Assembly: GCF_009905605.1 (NCBI RefSeq)
Contig: NZ_JAAAKZ010000016.1
Span: forward strand, 1-64,000
Source of the DNA: Runella sp. CRIBMP
GTDB lineage: Bacteria > Bacteroidota > Bacteroidia > Cytophagales > Spirosomataceae
Direction of reading: 5' to 3'
Length of the DNA: 64,000 bases
In this document: positions 45,269 through 61,710 of the stretch, one piece after another
How positions within the stretch are numbered: position 1 is the first letter of the stretch
Layout: every line of letters begins with the position of its first letter
Program-made: the position numbers and the translations under genes
The notes under the pieces: model-generated
What the model saw: the letters and a program-made list of their open reading frames with translations, nothing else
Database searches by the model: none
What the model was told of the DNA's origin: nothing

Positions 45269-45355
45269 AGAGAGGTGTCCGAGTGGTTGAAGGAGCACGC
45301 CTGGAAAGTGTGTATACGGGCAACCGTATCGAGAGTTCGAATCTCTTCCTCTCTG
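45269..45355 (+). tRNA. tRNA-Ser (anticodon GGA)
   Basis: 87-nt cloverleaf: acceptor AGAGAGG (45269-45275) pairs with CCTCTCT (45348-45354) and G45355 is the discriminator. The anticodon loop CTGGAAA (45301-45307) has GGA at 45303-45305. A long variable arm typical of tRNA-Ser (TATACGGGCAACCGTAT region) and the TTCGAAT T-loop are present. CCA is not encoded. A recombinase gene starts 208 bp downstream on the same strand, so the 3' end is a likely phage attachment site. Confidence 0.95.
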
Positions 45356-45377
45356 CTGGAACCCATTGAATACGAGG

Positions 45378-45562: not shown

Positions 45563-46843
45563 ATGTACAATATTCAACAGATGTATATTTTGTTTTGGTT
45601 TCGTAAATCGGAAGCCAAGGTTGAAGTAATGCAAAGAAAACAGGATCCTCAGTATGATACCAAGGGCAATATTTCTTGCCGGGTAACTCTCGAAGGTGAA
45701 AGTGTAGAAATCGGCAATGTTCACATTGAATGCAGAAAGTCCAGTTGGGATGCCGAAAATCAAAGATTAATTGGCTCTGACGCCAAAACCAAAAGCCATA
45801 ATAGACAGATTAATGACCTAAAAACGAAAATTGAGCGCACGTTTGGTCTACTCCAAATTGAATTTGAGTATGTATCAGCGGCGCTCGTAAAGGAGTACGT
45901 AACTGAAAAAAAGCTGTTTCGATATACCATCAGCCAATTAATCGGGGAGTATTTTAAAGATAGGCAGCTGGACGTAAAAAACAAATTGATAGTCCAAGTG
46001 ACGATTGATGTTCAGGAGAATTATTCAAGAAACTTTTTGGACTACCTCGGCCATGAAAAATGGTTAAATCTGTCGCTTAGGTCGTTTGATGAAAAAGTCT
46101 TGACAGGCTTTAAAACCTACCTCCTGGTTGAGAATGGCTTTAGTTTCCCCCATACGTATAAACATTTGGTGTGGGTTAAATCTTTGTTTAAGCATTCATT
46201 AAAAAAGAGACGAATTAAGCACAATCCATTGGCTGATTGTGAAATCGGGAGCGATAATACCAAACCTGACACCACCCATTTAACAGTTGACCAACTTTCA
46301 AAGTTGGCTTGCTTTGATTTTTATGGCCTTGTAAAAAAGGGATTTATCACAGAACAAACTGCGAAAAAATGTGACCTCGAAAGGGATGCGTTTGTTTTCA
46401 ATTGTTTCTCTGGAATGCACCACGTTGACTACACCAATAAAACCTTCAGGATTGAAAAATACAGAGATGACATTTTCTTAAAGGGGAGACGACAAAAGAC
46501 CGACAATGATTTCATGGTTAAGTTGCTCGAACCAGCAGTAAATATTTTAGCCAAGTACGGTGGTGAGATTAAGAATCTACCCGTCAAGTCTAACCAAAAA
46601 AGGAATGACACCTTAAAACAGATTGCCGTATTTGTGGGAATCCCAGTTGTGCTTTCGACGAAAATTGCACGAAAGACATTTACAGACATCGCACTGAACG
46701 AATTGATGATGGAAATCAAGGATGTAACGGCGTGTTTGGGTCTGAAAAATGACCGATATCTGGAACATTACGGAAGAATTCGAGAAAAAAGACTTGCTGC
46801 CAAAATGATGAAGTCATGGAACGACATTATGAAATCAGCCTAA
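45563..46843 (+). CDS. Divergent tyrosine recombinase (phage-integrase-like)
   Basis: 426 aa, laid out like Bacteroidota integrases: an arm-type N-terminal part (about 1-100), a SAM-like core-binding domain (about 118-215, YTISQLIGEYF through SLFKHSLKKR) and a C-terminal catalytic domain (about 230-415). The active site is unusual. The first catalytic Arg position, normally within 'TGLRxxD', reads SGMHHVDY; the H-x-x-R box reads KIARKTF, keeping the Arg but with Lys at both usual His positions; the next His position reads LGLKND. The nucleophilic Tyr (LEHYGRI) is present. It could be inactive, differently catalytic, or recently decayed. It lies between tRNA-Ser and the phage genes, bracketed by a 12-bp inverted repeat, and converges on a terminator. 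Confidence 0.85.
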   Translation: MYNIQQMYILFWFRKSEAKVEVMQRKQDPQYDTKGNISCRVTLEGESVEIGNVHIECRKSSWDAENQRLIGSDAKTKSHNRQINDLKTKIERTFGLLQIEFEYVSAALVKEYVTEKKLFRYTISQLIGEYFKDRQLDVKNKLIVQVTIDVQENYSRNFLDYLGHEKWLNLSLRSFDEKVLTGFKTYLLVENGFSFPHTYKHLVWVKSLFKHSLKKRRIKHNPLADCEIGSDNTKPDTTHLTVDQLSKLACFDFYGLVKKGFITEQTAKKCDLERDAFVFNCFSGMHHVDYTNKTFRIEKYRDDIFLKGRRQKTDNDFMVKLLEPAVNILAKYGGEIKNLPVKSNQKRNDTLKQIAVFVGIPVVLSTKIARKTFTDIALNELMMEIKDVTACLGLKNDRYLEHYGRIREKRLAAKMMKSWNDIMKSA

Positions 46844-54636: not shown

Positions 54637-55845
54637 CTACCTCTTAGCGGCCTCGGAATCGTTCATTTTTGCTTCGGTTTTGGCGGTTTCCATTTCCGTC
54701 ATTCGTTGGGCCAGCGCAGCCAGCTGTTTTTTCAAATCGTTGATTTCAGACTGCTGTTCATCATTCTGCTGTTTTAATTCCTTGGCGGCATTGACCAATG
54801 GCATCACAAAATCAGAGTAGGCCAGTGAATACATGCCATCATCGGATTTCTTTAAGCCACTGAAGGGCACATTCAACTCTTTCATAACGGCTTCAATATC
54901 TTGTGCAACAAAACCATCATGACGCACATGGGTATTATCTGACTTGTAACTGTAAGAAACGGTTTGGAGTTTGTTGATAAAGTCTAACCCCAAACGAGAA
55001 GTATAAATGATATTTTCTTTTAAACGACGGTCAGAGGGATAAGTATAAGCCACTTGCCCTTCAATAACAGTTACTTGGGCATTTCCAAGGCGTATTTTAT
55101 TAGAAGCGTTAACGGAGGCTAGGTATCCAAGGGCTGTTGCATTGTTTAGATTAGAAGAATTGGCATTAGCCTGAGTACCAATGAATGTATTATTCCTTCC
55201 AGTAGAATTTGAGAGTCCAGCGCTAATTCCCAAAGCAGTATTACTGTAGCCTGTCGTGTTGTTAATTAGCGAGGTAGCTCCAATGGCCGTGTTTTGAGTC
55301 CCCGTCGTGTTGTTGTACAGTGCATAGTTTCCATAGGCAGTGTTTTCATAGCCTATCGTGTTGCTTTGCAGCGCTTCGGCACCATAGGCTGTGTTATAAT
55401 AGCCCGTCGTATTGCTTTGCAGAGCTTTGGATCCATTCGCGGTGTTTTCATAGCCCGTCGTATTGCTTTGTAGCGCATAAATTCCAGTCGCCGTATTGTA
55501 AACTCCACTCGTGTTGCTTACTAGGGCAGATTCTCCGTGGCCCGTGTTGTAACTGCCTGTCGTATTGTTTCTCAGTACAGAGGCCCCTGTAGCTGTATTT
55601 TTAACGCCTATCGTGTTGAAAACAAGCGCTCCGGATCCAATGGCGGTATTACTATTACCTGTTGTATTGGCTTTAAGAGTAGATGGCCCTAAAGCAACGT
55701 TCGTTGTATCCGCCGAGGGATTACTTTTGCTCTGTAACCCCTTAGGTGTAATAAGTATTGAACCATGGGCATTGGATTGGGTAGAAATTTGACCCATGCT
55801 GTACAAACTGCACATTAACATAGATAAAATAAGACTCTTTTTCAT
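54637..55845 (-). CDS. Repeat-rich tail fibre with S74 peptidase/chaperone domain
   Basis: 402 aa beginning with a signal-like segment (1-19, ending GQIS). Residues about 50-235 are nine or so repeats of a 22-residue unit of the type 'NTTGxxNTAxGxxALxS', as in collagen-like or YadA-head-like beta-rolls. The C-terminal part carries the S74 hallmark SDRRLKENI (near 274), followed by 'GFVAQDIEAVMKE' and a final coiled coil. S74 domains trimerise fibres and cut themselves off. It is an unusual member in having a signal-like N-terminus, which may mean it is an exported host-type protein with the same domain. The 66-bp DNA repeats invite copy-number change. Confidence 0.85.
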   Translation of the reverse strand: MKKSLILSMLMCSLYSMGQISTQSNAHGSILITPKGLQSKSNPSADTTNVALGPSTLKANTTGNSNTAIGSGALVFNTIGVKNTATGASVLRNNTTGSYNTGHGESALVSNTSGVYNTATGIYALQSNTTGYENTANGSKALQSNTTGYYNTAYGAEALQSNTIGYENTAYGNYALYNNTTGTQNTAIGATSLINNTTGYSNTALGISAGLSNSTGRNNTFIGTQANANSSNLNNATALGYLASVNASNKIRLGNAQVTVIEGQVAYTYPSDRRLKENIIYTSRLGLDFINKLQTVSYSYKSDNTHVRHDGFVAQDIEAVMKELNVPFSGLKKSDDGMYSLAYSDFVMPLVNAAKELKQQNDEQQSEINDLKKQLAALAQRMTEMETAKTEAKMNDSEAAKR

Positions 55846-56503: not shown

Positions 56504-58497
56504 GCTGGTTCGCAAATTATAACAAGATTAGGGTCGCCCCAATTGACCGCAATGTTGGCAATTCGGTAGGTCTGATTGCCTGCCAATACCGCACTGGTGA
56601 AGCCCTTGGAAGGAATCCGAATCCTGAAATTGGCAAACGGCGACGCGGAATATTGCACCCGAATATCAATATTGTAGATGCCTTGATTCAGGCCAGCGGC
56701 GGCATATCGAACGCTTGGGCTGTTGTAACTTGTGTTGGTAATTATCTCTACCCCGCCCACGATAACGGCAAAAATAGGCTGCGTCGAGGCCGTGGGGCAG
56801 GCGTTGGTGATACCAATCGGAATGGGCGTTGGCACAATACAAGTACCGTAAGCGTTGGCGTTTTCCTGCGTATCCATGGCATTGGCGGCGGCGGCCGCTT
56901 TGCCGTCGGCGTCGCCTTGGCTTACTTCGGAGCCGTAAGCACCAGCCGCTACCGTGATGGTCCAGTTGCCACCCACCTGCCCAACGGCGCAGTTGTTGCG
57001 TTTATAGACCGACGTTTGGTTCAATACCGTATTTTGGTAAGGAGTGGTGATGGCTTCGCAATCGGCGCTGTCCCACGACGGAATGTACCCTTCGGTACCT
57101 ACGACGTTGGGTTTTTGGGTACGGGGTTTGACATCTTCACCGTTGTCGATGTAGTATTTTACGAGCAATCCGTACCGCTTTTTACCGTTGCGGAGTCCCG
57201 TTGACTGATTCAGCTCACAGGCCTGTGCGTCGCCGCGCCAACCCGTAGGCCGCGCAGGAGCCGAGGCCAGTGCGGGCAGGCGGCTATAAGAAGTTTCTTT
57301 GTTGGTGTACCTGAAGGTGAGCGTACGGCCAACGGTCTTTTCGCGGTCATCATCGGCCAAGTAACTATCTGAAATGAGCGTGAGCGGGATATGCTCGCGG
57401 TCGGTAATCAAATAGACCTGCTCGGCAAAAAACAGTTCCTGCCAATAATCGCGCATTCCTTTGCCCTGGTATTGGTAACCCGTGGAGACGGTAAGCTCAC
57501 GCTCCCCCGTGACCCGGTTGATGACTCGCTCCGAAACATCGGGCAAATACTCATACCCCCTGAACTGTTCGGCGGTTTGGCGCTGTACTTTTAGATTTTC
57601 GCTGGCGTCGCCATAGCAAGCCAGGGTATCAAACAGGCCGAGGCTGTTTTGGAAAAGAATATAACGTAACGTACGGTAAGGCTGACGGTACATGAGGTAG
57701 TTTCGTTCTTCCGAAAGCCGCTCATTGTTTTCGTTAGAGAGCCAAACTTTGTACCGGCTCACGGGCTTGCCAGCCACGTTGGTGCGGGCTTGGAGGTCGA
57801 GCTGCGTAGGGCCAACGGGGCAAACATACACCGCCATTGACGATACATCATCGAGGGCCAGGGCCGTGATCGTTTCGACGCTCCAGTCGTCGTAGGTGAT
57901 TTCGACCCGTAGCCTCAGCTCCGACGGGGTGGGGCTAAAGTTGGTGATGAAGCCCAAATACTCGGGTTGGTCGGGGCGAAGGGGAGCCCAGTCAGGTTTC
58001 CAAGTCAGGAAACGGCGACCACTACCGACGTAGCTCGTAAAGAATTTGTCTTTATAGGCGGCGTAGTCAGTTTCTGCAAAACCACCCCGGTACACATACG
58101 ATGATGGTTGGATAGTTTCGTCGATGGGAGCGCTGCCGTTTTTGCGGATGGCCTTGGTGTAGTAGGGCCGCACGAGGGTTTCACAGATGGCAATTTGGCT
58201 GAGGCCAAACACGGGCACGCGGCTCTCTACCAAGCCGTGTAGTAGATCCTGAATTTCGAAATTTGCGCCCGGGTAGGCCGTAACCCCCGCGACGGTTTGG
58301 GGCGGCTCTTCGCTTCCCTCCAGCGTGGTCAATGAAATAAAACCACCCTGATAAAATTCAGGCACAAAAACTTCCAAATAGTAGCGCAGGGGCATCCTGT
58401 CGGGGTAAGTGACGGGACTGGAGGCATCGACATTGACGACGATGGGCAGTTTGGAAAGCTGCAAATCCTGATGGGTGATATTAGCTAAGTAATCCAT
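56500..58497 (-). CDS. Phage structural protein with DUF5977-like region
   Basis: 665 aa from ATG 58497 (the open frame begins earlier at TTG 58518). Mostly beta-rich. A C-terminal stretch (about 505-560), 'NCAVGQVGGNWTITVAAGAYGSEVSQGDADGKAAAAA', is the DUF5977-type segment found in Bacteroidota surface and phage-like proteins; 'NYLMYRQPYRTLRYILFQN' precedes it. The last 100 residues form another beta-domain. Probably a large tail or baseplate protein. It overlaps the upstream gene by 17 bases and the downstream gene by 4. Confidence 0.75.
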   Translation of the reverse strand: MDYLANITHQDLQLSKLPIVVNVDASSPVTYPDRMPLRYYLEVFVPEFYQGGFISLTTLEGSEEPPQTVAGVTAYPGANFEIQDLLHGLVESRVPVFGLSQIAICETLVRPYYTKAIRKNGSAPIDETIQPSSYVYRGGFAETDYAAYKDKFFTSYVGSGRRFLTWKPDWAPLRPDQPEYLGFITNFSPTPSELRLRVEITYDDWSVETITALALDDVSSMAVYVCPVGPTQLDLQARTNVAGKPVSRYKVWLSNENNERLSEERNYLMYRQPYRTLRYILFQNSLGLFDTLACYGDASENLKVQRQTAEQFRGYEYLPDVSERVINRVTGERELTVSTGYQYQGKGMRDYWQELFFAEQVYLITDREHIPLTLISDSYLADDDREKTVGRTLTFRYTNKETSYSRLPALASAPARPTGWRGDAQACELNQSTGLRNGKKRYGLLVKYYIDNGEDVKPRTQKPNVVGTEGYIPSWDSADCEAITTPYQNTVLNQTSVYKRNNCAVGQVGGNWTITVAAGAYGSEVSQGDADGKAAAAANAMDTQENANAYGTCIVPTPIPIGITNACPTASTQPIFAVIVGGVEIITNTSYNSPSVRYAAAGLNQGIYNIDIRVQYSASPFANFRIRIPSKGFTSAVLAGNQTYRIANIAVNWGDPNLVIICEPA

Positions 58498-58942
58498 TTG
58501 CGGTAAATCTAAGTTCAAATTCTAATCTCCAACCCCAATGACTACCCGCCCAGCCGCGATCGACGGCGGTTTTTTTCATGCCGCTGATGGTGCAATCGAG
58601 CGTACCTTTGTTGCGGTTATCCAATCGCATCTTTTTTTGCAAGCCTTGCAGGAGCCGCATCGCATCGACCTCGGCCTGCACCTGCGCGGCGCGGTCATCG
58701 AGGGGAGCGGAGCAGATAACGCTGATGCCGCCGTAGTAGGCTTCGATGAGCTGCCCAGCACCGTTGTCTTCCGAGACGATTTCGGGTTGTTCGAGCCAGG
58801 CGAAGGGATAGGAGAAATCTTCCTTGGAGGTGGCATAACTGATGCCCAGCTCTACCCCGCCATACAGGAAGAACAGTTGCTGAGCTTCGGCCCAAGCTTT
58901 GAAGTAATCAAGATAGTTTTGAAAATCAGCCGTGATAATCAT
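58481..58942 (-). CDS. Phage protein of unknown function (159-aa frame)
   Basis: 153 aa from ATG 58942; the longer frame starts at a TTG (58960). Visible features are an aromatic-rich start (FQNYLDYFKAW, LFFLYGG) and a 'WGWRLEFELRFTANG' end, reminiscent of small tail-terminator or completion proteins, but I do not recognise the family. It is the first gene after the plus-strand cargo unit and lies behind a terminator-like hairpin. Confidence 0.65.
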   Translation of the reverse strand: MIITADFQNYLDYFKAWAEAQQLFFLYGGVELGISYATSKEDFSYPFAWLEQPEIVSEDNGAGQLIEAYYGGISVICSAPLDDRAAQVQAEVDAMRLLQGLQKKMRLDNRNKGTLDCTISGMKKTAVDRGWAGSHWGWRLEFELRFTANGLLS

Positions 58943-58963
58943 CGTTGGGTTTTTGCCCAAAAC

Positions 58964-59198: not shown

Positions 59199-60011
59199 AT
59201 GGCACATAGTAAAAGAAAAGGCAAGAATTTTATACCTCCAAAACGTCATAATCCAACCTATCTTGCCCATAAAATTGAAAAGAATGGGGAGGAAATCCAA
59301 AAAATCAGGAAACAGAAAGATATGATTTATGCGGCTCTTGAGCGCCATGTAGAATACTTAACAAACTTTACAAGTCATGATATCAAAAACGCCATCCAGA
59401 ATATGGATAGCGTTGTCTCAAGCTTAGATATAGAAAACGTCACAAATGAAGATATTGAAACAATAAAGGCCTGTTTAGGTAGTATACGTAGTTCACTTCA
59501 AAACTTTGCATCCTTAGTGCCGAACTCCACAAAAAAGGAGTTTTATTTAAAGGAACTTTGTATGGCTACTGAACTAATTAATAAACCAGACTTCAAAAAG
59601 AATAAAATTAAGTTTGAGTCAAATTATGAAAAAGGTGATAAGACAATAATTACACAGCCTTACCATAGTTTACTTCAAGTTTTAAATAACTTAATGATAA
59701 ACTCAATAAAATCTTTTGAGGGGCTAGATGTTGAAAAACGAATACGGTTAGACTGCCATTTAAAAGATGGCAATGTAGAAATATCTATTTCTGATAATGG
59801 CTGTGGGATATCTGACTCAATAAAGCCTAAAATATTTGACATGTACTTTTCAAATACAAATGGAAGTGGTGTTGGGTTATATCACGCAACATATATTCTT
59901 GCAGATTTAAACGGAAAAATTGAGTTACTGCAAAATATTGGAGATTTTGTAACAGTTTTTAAAATTAGCTTTCCTATAATTACGACAAATGAAATCGATA
60001 CTGATAATTGA
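59199..60011 (+). CDS. Soluble histidine kinase of the cargo two-gene unit
   Basis: 270 aa, no membrane segment and no recognizable sensor. A lysine-rich start (about 1-40) leads into a helical dimerization region with His60 (TSHDIKNAIQNM), the candidate phospho-site, followed by a HATPase domain (about 120-262): N-box NNLMINSI (163-170, Asn168), DNGCGI (199-204) and GSGVGLYHA (222-230). These are all the catalytic boxes of a histidine kinase. The gene overlaps its partner by 23 bases, implying coupling. It is on the plus strand, against the phage genes on both sides, and much richer in A/T, so it is likely cargo acquired separately. The trigger could be bound by the N-terminal region or by a missing sensor protein. 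Confidence 0.9.
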   Translation: MAHSKRKGKNFIPPKRHNPTYLAHKIEKNGEEIQKIRKQKDMIYAALERHVEYLTNFTSHDIKNAIQNMDSVVSSLDIENVTNEDIETIKACLGSIRSSLQNFASLVPNSTKKEFYLKELCMATELINKPDFKKNKIKFESNYEKGDKTIITQPYHSLLQVLNNLMINSIKSFEGLDVEKRIRLDCHLKDGNVEISISDNGCGISDSIKPKIFDMYFSNTNGSGVGLYHATYILADLNGKIELLQNIGDFVTVFKISFPIITTNEIDTDN

Positions 60012-60894
60012 TGACGAGTCTATCCAAGCCAATAGCCTTGCGAAATCGCTAAAAAAAGAGCGCACAAATATTGACTTTTTTGTGGCAAGTAAAGAAGAAG
60101 AAATACTCTACAGTATTGAGCATCTGTACTTTGATATTGCTATTGTTGATTTAAGGATGGATGATTTTGATATCGACGGCTTTCAGGTAATTGATAAAAT
60201 TATTGAAATAAATCCATTTGCTAAAATAATCGTTGTTTCCGCATTCACTCAAGAATATTTTACTGAATTAAATAAAATTCTACTCTCTGGGAAGATTATA
60301 GCTATAATTGAAAAGAAAGAATATAATGTTTTTTTAAGCGAAATAGTACTCGCTATAGCAAAGTATGAAGAGTACGTAACAAAGAACCCTAGTGAGACAT
60401 CGAAGGCTTTATTGAATTATTATGCAAATGCAAAGAATCAGCAAAATTCATATGAAAAAGGCATAGTTTTTGAACACTTTATTACTCTATTGTTTAATAA
60501 TATGGGATTTAAAACTATAATTAAAAGAGTAATAGATAAAAGCAGAAATGAAGTCGATTTAATTATTAGAAATGACGTTAATGATAATTTCTTTTCAAAA
60601 TTCAGGCCATACATTTTAGTAGAATGTAAAAACAAGCCCGACGATGGAATTGGAAAAAACGATTTTATACAATTTTATTCAAAATTGCAACATACGAATG
60701 GCCTCTCTGATTTAGGGTTTTTAATAACCTCTGGATTTATTTCGAAAACAACTTACTTAGAAGCAATGAGAACTTCAAAGAATGGTGAGAAAATAGCCTT
60801 TATTTCAAATCCAGAAATAGAGAGACTAATAAATTCGGAAAGTCCGATGGAAGAATTGAAAAAAATTATTGACGAGCAAGTTAAAGATAATTAA
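59989..60894 (+). CDS. Receiver domain fused to Mrr-like PD-(D/E)XK nuclease
   Basis: 301 aa. Residues 1-120 are a CheY-like receiver: acidic Asp8/Asp9, phospho-site Asp54 (IAIVDLRMDD), Ser84 and Lys109/110. A linker (about 121-150) leads to a restriction-endonuclease-type domain (about 155-290): YEKGIVFEHF with Glu162, then NEVDLII with Asp190, then YILVECKN with Glu212-x-Lys214, the PD-(D/E)XK core in the order found in Mrr_cat-like enzymes, and the 'GFLITSGF' strand also typical of that family. The upstream kinase likely phosphorylates the receiver and so switches nuclease activity. A two-component output through DNA cleavage instead of transcription is unusual. Stop at 60894 is 12 bp from the convergent phage gene. 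Confidence 0.9.
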   Translation: MKSILIIDDESIQANSLAKSLKKERTNIDFFVASKEEEILYSIEHLYFDIAIVDLRMDDFDIDGFQVIDKIIEINPFAKIIVVSAFTQEYFTELNKILLSGKIIAIIEKKEYNVFLSEIVLAIAKYEEYVTKNPSETSKALLNYYANAKNQQNSYEKGIVFEHFITLLFNNMGFKTIIKRVIDKSRNEVDLIIRNDVNDNFFSKFRPYILVECKNKPDDGIGKNDFIQFYSKLQHTNGLSDLGFLITSGFISKTTYLEAMRTSKNGEKIAFISNPEIERLINSESPMEELKKIIDEQVKDN

Positions 60895-60906: not shown

Positions 60907-61710
60907 TTATTCACCTTCGTTTTTTTTCTTTGCCTGTTCATCCATTTGAATCTTCCGATGTTTGAGGTACATCCAAATGGTGTGGGCGTTGGTATCACAG
61001 ACTTTATCGAAGTTGCCATGGACGCCCGCTGAGGCGACATCTTCCAACGTGGCCAGCCAGCCTTCGCCATTCTGAAAAAGGCTGCGGCCCTCGGCCCCGT
61101 CGTAGAGGGCTTTGTGGATTTCGTAGAACTCATTGTTTTGCGCTTCCCAATATTGAAGGATGGCAATGCACACGCCAAGGCGTAGCTTTTGGAATTTGAC
61201 AGCCCGCCGCTCCGCGCGCAGGGAGTTGAAGGGTTGACGGTCCTCGCCGTCGTAGCCGGGCAGGTATTTACGAAACCACCAATTCCATTTTCGCGGGCGG
61301 CATATCGTGGCCAGCAAATCAAACAGCCGGGGGGAGTCGGCTTTGGTGGCTTTGACAAAAGCAAGGTAGTGCATGTTGGCCATGGCCAATTCGATGCTTG
61401 AGGTATCGGCGTAGTGGAGTTTGGGCAGGAAGTACTGACGGCCTCGATGGCGAAAAGAAGTAAATGGCAGCGTGGTGATTTTATCGACCGTGGCCCAGCG
61501 GATGCGGTCAATCAGTTCAAACTTTTTATCGTTGGACAGCAGCTCGTATTGGTTTCGGTCTAGGCGGGTGAGCAGGCATACCAAATCACCGAGCAGCTCC
61601 AGTACGGCATCGGGGTAGCTGGCGTAGGATTGAATGAGCAATTGCAGCTCCAGTCCTTCGATGAGCTGAGGGGTAGAGCAGTCTTTCCAGGAAGAAGGGA
61701 TTTTTACCAT
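60907..61710 (-). CDS. Phage-associated protein of unknown function
   Basis: 267 aa, cytoplasmic, rich in helices and aromatic residues (WNWWFRKYLPGYDGED, CIAILQYWEAQNNEFYEIHKAL). It ends in a Lys/Glu-rich tail. No motif recognised. ATG 61710 overlaps the upstream gene by seven bases. An alternative frame on the same strand (60891-61511) is Pro/Thr-rich and looks like a shadow. Confidence 0.7.
   Translation of the reverse strand: MVKIPSSWKDCSTPQLIEGLELQLLIQSYASYPDAVLELLGDLVCLLTRLDRNQYELLSNDKKFELIDRIRWATVDKITTLPFTSFRHRGRQYFLPKLHYADTSSIELAMANMHYLAFVKATKADSPRLFDLLATICRPRKWNWWFRKYLPGYDGEDRQPFNSLRAERRAVKFQKLRLGVCIAILQYWEAQNNEFYEIHKALYDGAEGRSLFQNGEGWLATLEDVASAGVHGNFDKVCDTNAHTIWMYLKHRKIQMDEQAKKKNEGE

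Follow-up and report, generated by a model that had tools for sequence, protein, structure and literature searches.

The window analysed here is a stretch of 64,000 nucleotides, positions 1 to 64,000 of contig NZ_JAAAKZ010000016.1 of Runella sp. CRIBMP. It contains two overlapping genes on the forward strand, one for a histidine kinase (59199..60011) and one for a receiver fused to a nuclease (59989..60894). We argue that this pair is probably a compact anti-phage module, most likely abortive or restrictive, in which the kinase switches the nuclease and which is carried as prophage cargo. The pair sits inside an integrated prophage and occupies a cargo site of that prophage's family. This site is the strongest functional clue, and we read the pair as defence cargo chiefly because the site is shared with ApeA and other defence-type genes. 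A defence or abortive-infection role had already been proposed in an initial annotation of the window. It now has independent though circumstantial support from the cargo site, from the unlike temperate phages that carry the pair, from restriction genes among its neighbours and from its patchy rarity. A tally of its neighbours with PADLOC leaves the matter undecided.

The prophage lies between two copies of a 23-bp repeat. One copy, attL, is the 3' end (45334..45356, forward strand) of a tRNA-Ser gene at 45269-45356. The other, attR, is outside the window at contig position 90147-90169. An integrase-like gene (45563..46843, forward strand) matches Phage_int_SAM_5 at 1.3e-4, just above that family's cut-off, and its catalytic-domain family was not matched at 0.001. 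Tape-measure, tail-spike and other phage-like genes lie between the repeats, and the pair stands among the tail genes. A viral contig of 43005 bases in IMG/VR contains the pair and corresponds to positions 45563-88567 here. These repeats, phage genes and viral contig bear out the earlier claim that the pair is carried inside a phage block. The adjoining phage genes run opposite in orientation to the pair, and its guanine-cytosine (GC) content is 30.6% versus 48.1% for the rest of the prophage. The host genome is 7.13 Mb. There is a second AT-rich gene in the prophage (contig position 69140-69871, or L009 5140-5871, forward strand, 243 residues, 35.5% GC). It has no Pfam match at 0.01 and is possibly another cargo gene. 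A Peptidase_S74 tail-spike-like protein is encoded at 54637-55845, and the product of contig position 73850-75559 has a similar N-terminus by eye; both genes are lower in GC than most of the prophage.

The cargo site is defined by its two borders. In the closest sister prophage the left border gene (58481..58960, reverse strand, 159 residues) is 95.6% identical and the right border gene (60907..61710, reverse strand, 267 residues) is 91.6% identical, and the site between them holds a 470-residue ApeA protein at 29% GC. The right border gene is matched in 51 of 200 host-family genomes. We examined 20 of the listed places, mostly those with the strongest matches, which together with the window makes 21 sites. 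Homologues of both border genes are found at all 21, with identities of 31 to 82% at the more diverged sites beyond this sister. Five sites are nearly empty, with gaps of 9 to 123 bases, and 16 are occupied. The site in G029 holds a protein with Mrr_cat and nSTAND3 (7.0e-7 and 4.5e-52) that has no sequence match in PDB, and the one in G091 holds a HEPN_Toprim_N protein (1.1e-8). The site in G011 holds an AAA_21 ATPase (3.0e-20) with a weak match to AriA among the ABC ATPases. Related copies of both borders occur three times or more in G011 (L129-L131), with this ATPase in one slot and two slots nearly empty. Further slots hold mostly AT-rich open reading frames (ORFs), which are candidates for new defence genes: L128 4405-5370 (no Pfam match at 0.01), L135 7163-9259, L138 4154-5479, L139 5099-6073 (no PDB sequence match at 0.01), L144 6051-7762 and L145 4399-5466.

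The kinase is a soluble, minimal protein of 270 residues. HATPase_c (3.8e-15) is its sole Pfam match above cut-off, and it has an H-box (H60-D61-I62-K63-N64), an N box (N164/N168) and G boxes (D199-x-G201 and G222-x-G224-x-G226). There are 59 residues ahead of His60, with a basic N-terminal tail. No known sensor domain is recognisable, no TPR family is matched in Pfam at an E-value of 0.1, and a simple hydropathy scan gives no transmembrane segment. His60 is kept in 36 of 37 kinases, the exception being a broken fragment (L036). N64 is kept in 34 of these, and position 61 is D, N or E in 35.

Receivers usually drive transcription. The second protein (301 residues) has no helix-turn-helix family in Pfam at 0.1, and its output is Mrr_cat, not a transcription domain. 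Its gene overlaps that of the kinase by 23 bases (59989..60011), which suggests translational coupling, and in homologous pairs the genes overlap or have short gaps between them. The receiver (59989..60354, roughly residues 1-122, with the boundary read from the structural model) has D8, D9, D54, S84 and K109, and residues 4-89 match Response_reg at 1.7e-11, above the Pfam cut-off. The Mrr-type PD-(D/E)XK domain (60388..60891, residues 134-301) has E162, E188, D190 and E212-x-K214, and residues 160-280 match Mrr_cat at 1.7e-8 (35 bits versus a cut-off of 21). The structure prediction proposed in the initial annotation gives a nuclease fold with a pLDDT of 93.5 that resembles AF1548, BspD6I and FokI. 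The catalytic residues have not been lost in homologues either, since E162, E188, D190, E212 and K214 are invariant in all 39 proteins aligned. Asp54 is kept in 37 of the 39, or 37 of the 38 that span that stretch (L042 has Asn and L046 is a piece without the receiver), and D9 and K109 are each present in 38. The reading of this locus as a soluble kinase with His60 and N and G boxes, overlapping a complete Asp54 receiver joined to a PD-(D/E)XK domain with Glu162, Asp190 and Glu212-x-Lys214, therefore stands in every part.

Scanning genome contigs yielded 48 loci: 30 close ones, 5 from Myxococcota (23-26% identity) and 13 weaker ones that were dropped. The close loci are 29 Bacteroidota and one Psychrobacter, and viral contigs contributed L109 and L110. 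We count 38 homologous loci (L017-L051, L077, L109, L110). Loci that are nuclease-only or too distant (L052-L064, L007, L111, L112) were left out of the pair counts. L004, L005, L006 and L008 are the same as L019, L037, L045 and L044 and were counted once, as were L125 and L127, which look like one prophage. Frames are broken in the kinases of L036 and L040 and in the receiver-nuclease of L046, and the kinase frame of L051 runs on. A search for such pairs across genomes had been suggested as a check, and it finds a kinase directly upstream in 36 of the 38 loci, spanning Bacteroidota, Moraxellaceae, Myxococcota and viral contigs (the kinases of L050 and L051 were recognised by eye). The other two loci, both from Pedobacter, have no kinase. 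Their orphan receiver-nucleases are at L035 7995-8900 and L042 7995-8906, and the latter combines its Asn at the phospho-acceptor position with an altered C-terminus.

Fixation of the homologues in core genomes with a transcription role had been named as a finding that would speak against a defence module. They are instead rare and patchy. The full-length receiver-nuclease is found in 4 of 200 host-family genomes, including its own, with the nuclease part alone in one more. A sample of the phylum gives 2 matches among 395 genomes at 1e-30, one of them again its own. Two queries of named phage records gave no match to the receiver-nuclease, and plasmid records gave partial matches alone. The kinase has one weak match in named phage records, to a Staphylococcus phage at 22.6% identity. 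A kinase-profile search, which scored at most 8 candidates per genome, matched 251 of 295 genomes of the class at 1e-22. These are taken as ordinary kinases; the window's own kinase scores 328 bits and the next scores 114.

Lambda-like and Mu-like viral contigs both carry the pair. L109 has CII-like and CI-like genes and DnaB. At L109 5010-8906, within a lambda-type immunity region, the pair follows the CI-like gene in the same orientation and is separated from it by three small ORFs. Lambda itself has rexAB downstream of cI, and the position of the pair recalls this arrangement. Mu portal and Mu F genes are found shortly ahead of the pair in L110. At other loci the genes that adjoin the pair or are at most two genes away include a P22-type portal in L030, an integrase and a tail gene in L031, a phage-type Dam in L027 and an integrase in L033. 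A tree of 32 rows groups the Psychrobacter locus (L032) with the viral contig L109 (100/100). This clade is nested within a clade of Sphingobacterium and Flavobacteriaceae (100/97), with its exact placement weakly supported (90/44). The window protein clusters with Geofilum (97/95), not with Dyadobacter of its own family.

We infer a course of events that runs from the trigger through phosphotransfer, the ON state, dimerisation and DNA cleavage to phage protection. The minimal cytoplasmic kinase would sense a sign of infection, autophosphorylate on His60 and hand its phosphate on to the receiver-nuclease at Asp54. That step would alter the surface through which receivers associate and bring the FokI-like nuclease domains together. 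The joined domains would then cut DNA of the phage, the host or both. HisKA kinases have a phosphatase motif similar to the H-(D/E/N)-x-x-N pattern seen here, so the kinase may also disarm the nuclease. An unstimulated kinase would remove the phosphate through its H-D-x-x-N motif and hold the nuclease off, a role that would replace the buffering receiver protein of the Detocs systems. We favour the phosphorylated form as the ON state on account of the two loci whose nuclease is intact although no kinase is nearby. Were the unphosphorylated form active, a cell would struggle to tolerate such a nuclease; the alternative is that these loci are in decay. Hydrophobic N-terminal segments occur in 4 of the 32 kinases scanned, and the two Myxococcota kinases put through Pfam carry a long N-terminal region that matches no family there, so the pair has a variable input side and an unchanging effector.

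Detocs, reported by Rousset et al. in 2023, is said to comprise DtcA, a kinase with an N-terminal TPR sensor, DtcB, a receiver-only buffer, and DtcC, a receiver-effector fusion. Some of its operons reportedly carry effectors other than PNP. The pair shares with Detocs a histidine kinase and a receiver fused to an effector, and by analogy it may read infection through a phosphorelay too. It differs in being two genes with a nuclease effector, and it departs from Detocs in three of the four features tested. The receiver-effector fusion is present, with Response_reg and Mrr_cat in one protein. The TPR sensor is missing from the kinase at the Pfam threshold given above, and the effector is a PD-(D/E)XK nuclease domain, not PNP. 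Within the 38 loci and the prophage as far as contig position 84000, a receiver-profile scan (0.01) found no separate receiver protein. Apart from the receiver-nucleases it matched a 140-residue fragment of the L046 gene, which is broken, and three ORFs in L035 and L051 of 250, 435 and 547 residues. With no receiver-only gene adjoining the pair, the claim that it lacks both the TPR sensor and the buffering receiver of Detocs is upheld. This comparison covers likeness and difference of features, so that "reduced form" is meant here without a claim about descent. PMC11249213 describes Detocs as a three-gene family, the best-described member of which uses PNP as its effector.

The nuclease domain is like the Mrr and PD-(D/E)XK restriction endonucleases (PF04471) in its family score above cut-off, its predicted fold and its catalytic residues. 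It differs in having a receiver joined to it and a kinase as its partner, and no separate DNA-recognition domain is apparent, as residues 134-301 form one nuclease-matching domain. The Can2, Card1, Can1, Avs4 and SduA nucleases are driven by cyclic oligoadenylate, STAND sensing or other domains, whereas the partner domain here is a receiver. Another likeness is to HEF_HK and Response_reg_2, which the accessible part of PMC8011034 presents as soluble histidine kinase-like and response regulator-like gene pairs linked to restriction-modification genes. These belong to PF19191 and PF19192, neither of which the pair matches in Pfam at 0.1, whereas the pair belongs to PF02518 and PF00072. That part of PMC8011034 describes no receiver-fused nuclease for them. 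The domains that a DefensePredictor figure legend (PMC13092281) gives for eight highlighted predicted systems include HATPase, REC and TPR, and one of these systems could be like the pair. The open literature turned up no defence pair of a kinase and a receiver-nuclease; subscription papers, including the Detocs original, were outside this search.

It must be noted that several points weigh against a defence module. Kinase and receiver-nuclease distances correlate (r 0.88 for 29 pairs, a value that none of 2000 permutations reached), but shared ancestry by itself also lifts a mirror-tree correlation. An infection trigger is a guess when no sensor domain can be recognised. The Pedobacter orphans could be decaying genes, and many chromosomal homologues adjoin what look by eye like housekeeping genes. 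Restriction genes do adjoin the pair in some genomes. The neighbours for these single Pfam scans were chosen by eye, so the positives are lower bounds with no control, and several of those chosen have no Pfam match (e.g. in L019, L021, L028, L032, L033 and L034). The PADLOC tally (1e-10) compared 106 genes around 30 loci, two of the 108 neighbours being omitted for length, with 92 genes from 11 control stretches. We consider the first 25 families of 117 around the pair and of 99 in the controls. Many ATPase models are matched by one gene in both sets. The neighbours of the pair add methyltransferase, HEC-06 and CARF models (one gene each), and the controls have a Septu-like PtuA/PtuB match. 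We take the comparison to favour neither side. On the pair itself PADLOC gives no match to the kinase and weak matches over the receiver. Finally, 11 of the 16 occupied cargo sites have contents without a family assignment (L128 and L139 alone were searched) and the AAA_21 family in G011 is broad, which leaves it unproven that the site serves defence alone.

One can also imagine scenarios where the pair does something else. It could be a type IV-like restriction enzyme that cuts modified foreign DNA, with the kinase merely tuning its activity and no infection signalling involved. We consider this unlikely, since the nuclease part has no apparent DNA-recognition domain of its own and the kinase is retained and co-varies with the nuclease. 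The nuclease could instead serve the prophage, either by acting when the phage is induced (host DNA being one conceivable target) or by maintaining the lysogen as an addiction pair. Temperate phages of several types carry the pair, and its orientation opposite to the adjoining phage genes fits this too. However, many homologues are found where no phage gene is seen by eye, and two orphan nucleases persist without a kinase. At this site related prophages hold different genes or next to nothing, which means this is not a core phage function, and a role in the prophage's own cycle is rather improbable.

The canonical two-component residues (the H, N and G boxes of the kinase and the Asp, acidic pair and Lys of the receiver) and the hydrophobic N-terminal segments of some kinases would also suit an ordinary stress-response system with a nuclease output, such as cell death linked to DNA damage and unrelated to phage. 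A pair this rare, patchy and foreign in GC, with a gammaproteobacterial copy inside a Bacteroidota clade, makes that very unlikely. The receiver might also sense a ligand instead of accepting phosphate, which is the role put forward for Cam2 of type III CRISPR loci. Receivers used without kinases have a precedent in PMC11229360, and orphan nucleases do exist. The phospho-acceptor site is kept here, however, and nearly all loci have the kinase directly upstream, so we give this scenario hardly any credence.

We return to the pair as a probable kinase-switched defence module. A broader proposal, which we make tentatively and which may well prove wrong, is that it represents a separate class of immune system. 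This class would be a two-gene phosphorelay whose receiver-nuclease stays constant while its kinase differs in input (minimal soluble, membrane-spanning, or with the long N-terminal region of Myxococcota), spread between phyla by temperate phages. Its kinase would both arm and disarm the nuclease with no need of a buffer, and the prophage family that hosts it would maintain a dedicated slot where such systems replace one another. If the defence reading is true, a receiver wired straight to a DNA-cutting domain is a very simple kinase-to-nuclease immune circuit, and three residues, H60, D54 and K214, make it directly testable. It would also show how a phosphorelay keeps a toxic nuclease safely in check when there is no buffer protein. 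The cargo slot itself is a ready list of further candidate defence genes.
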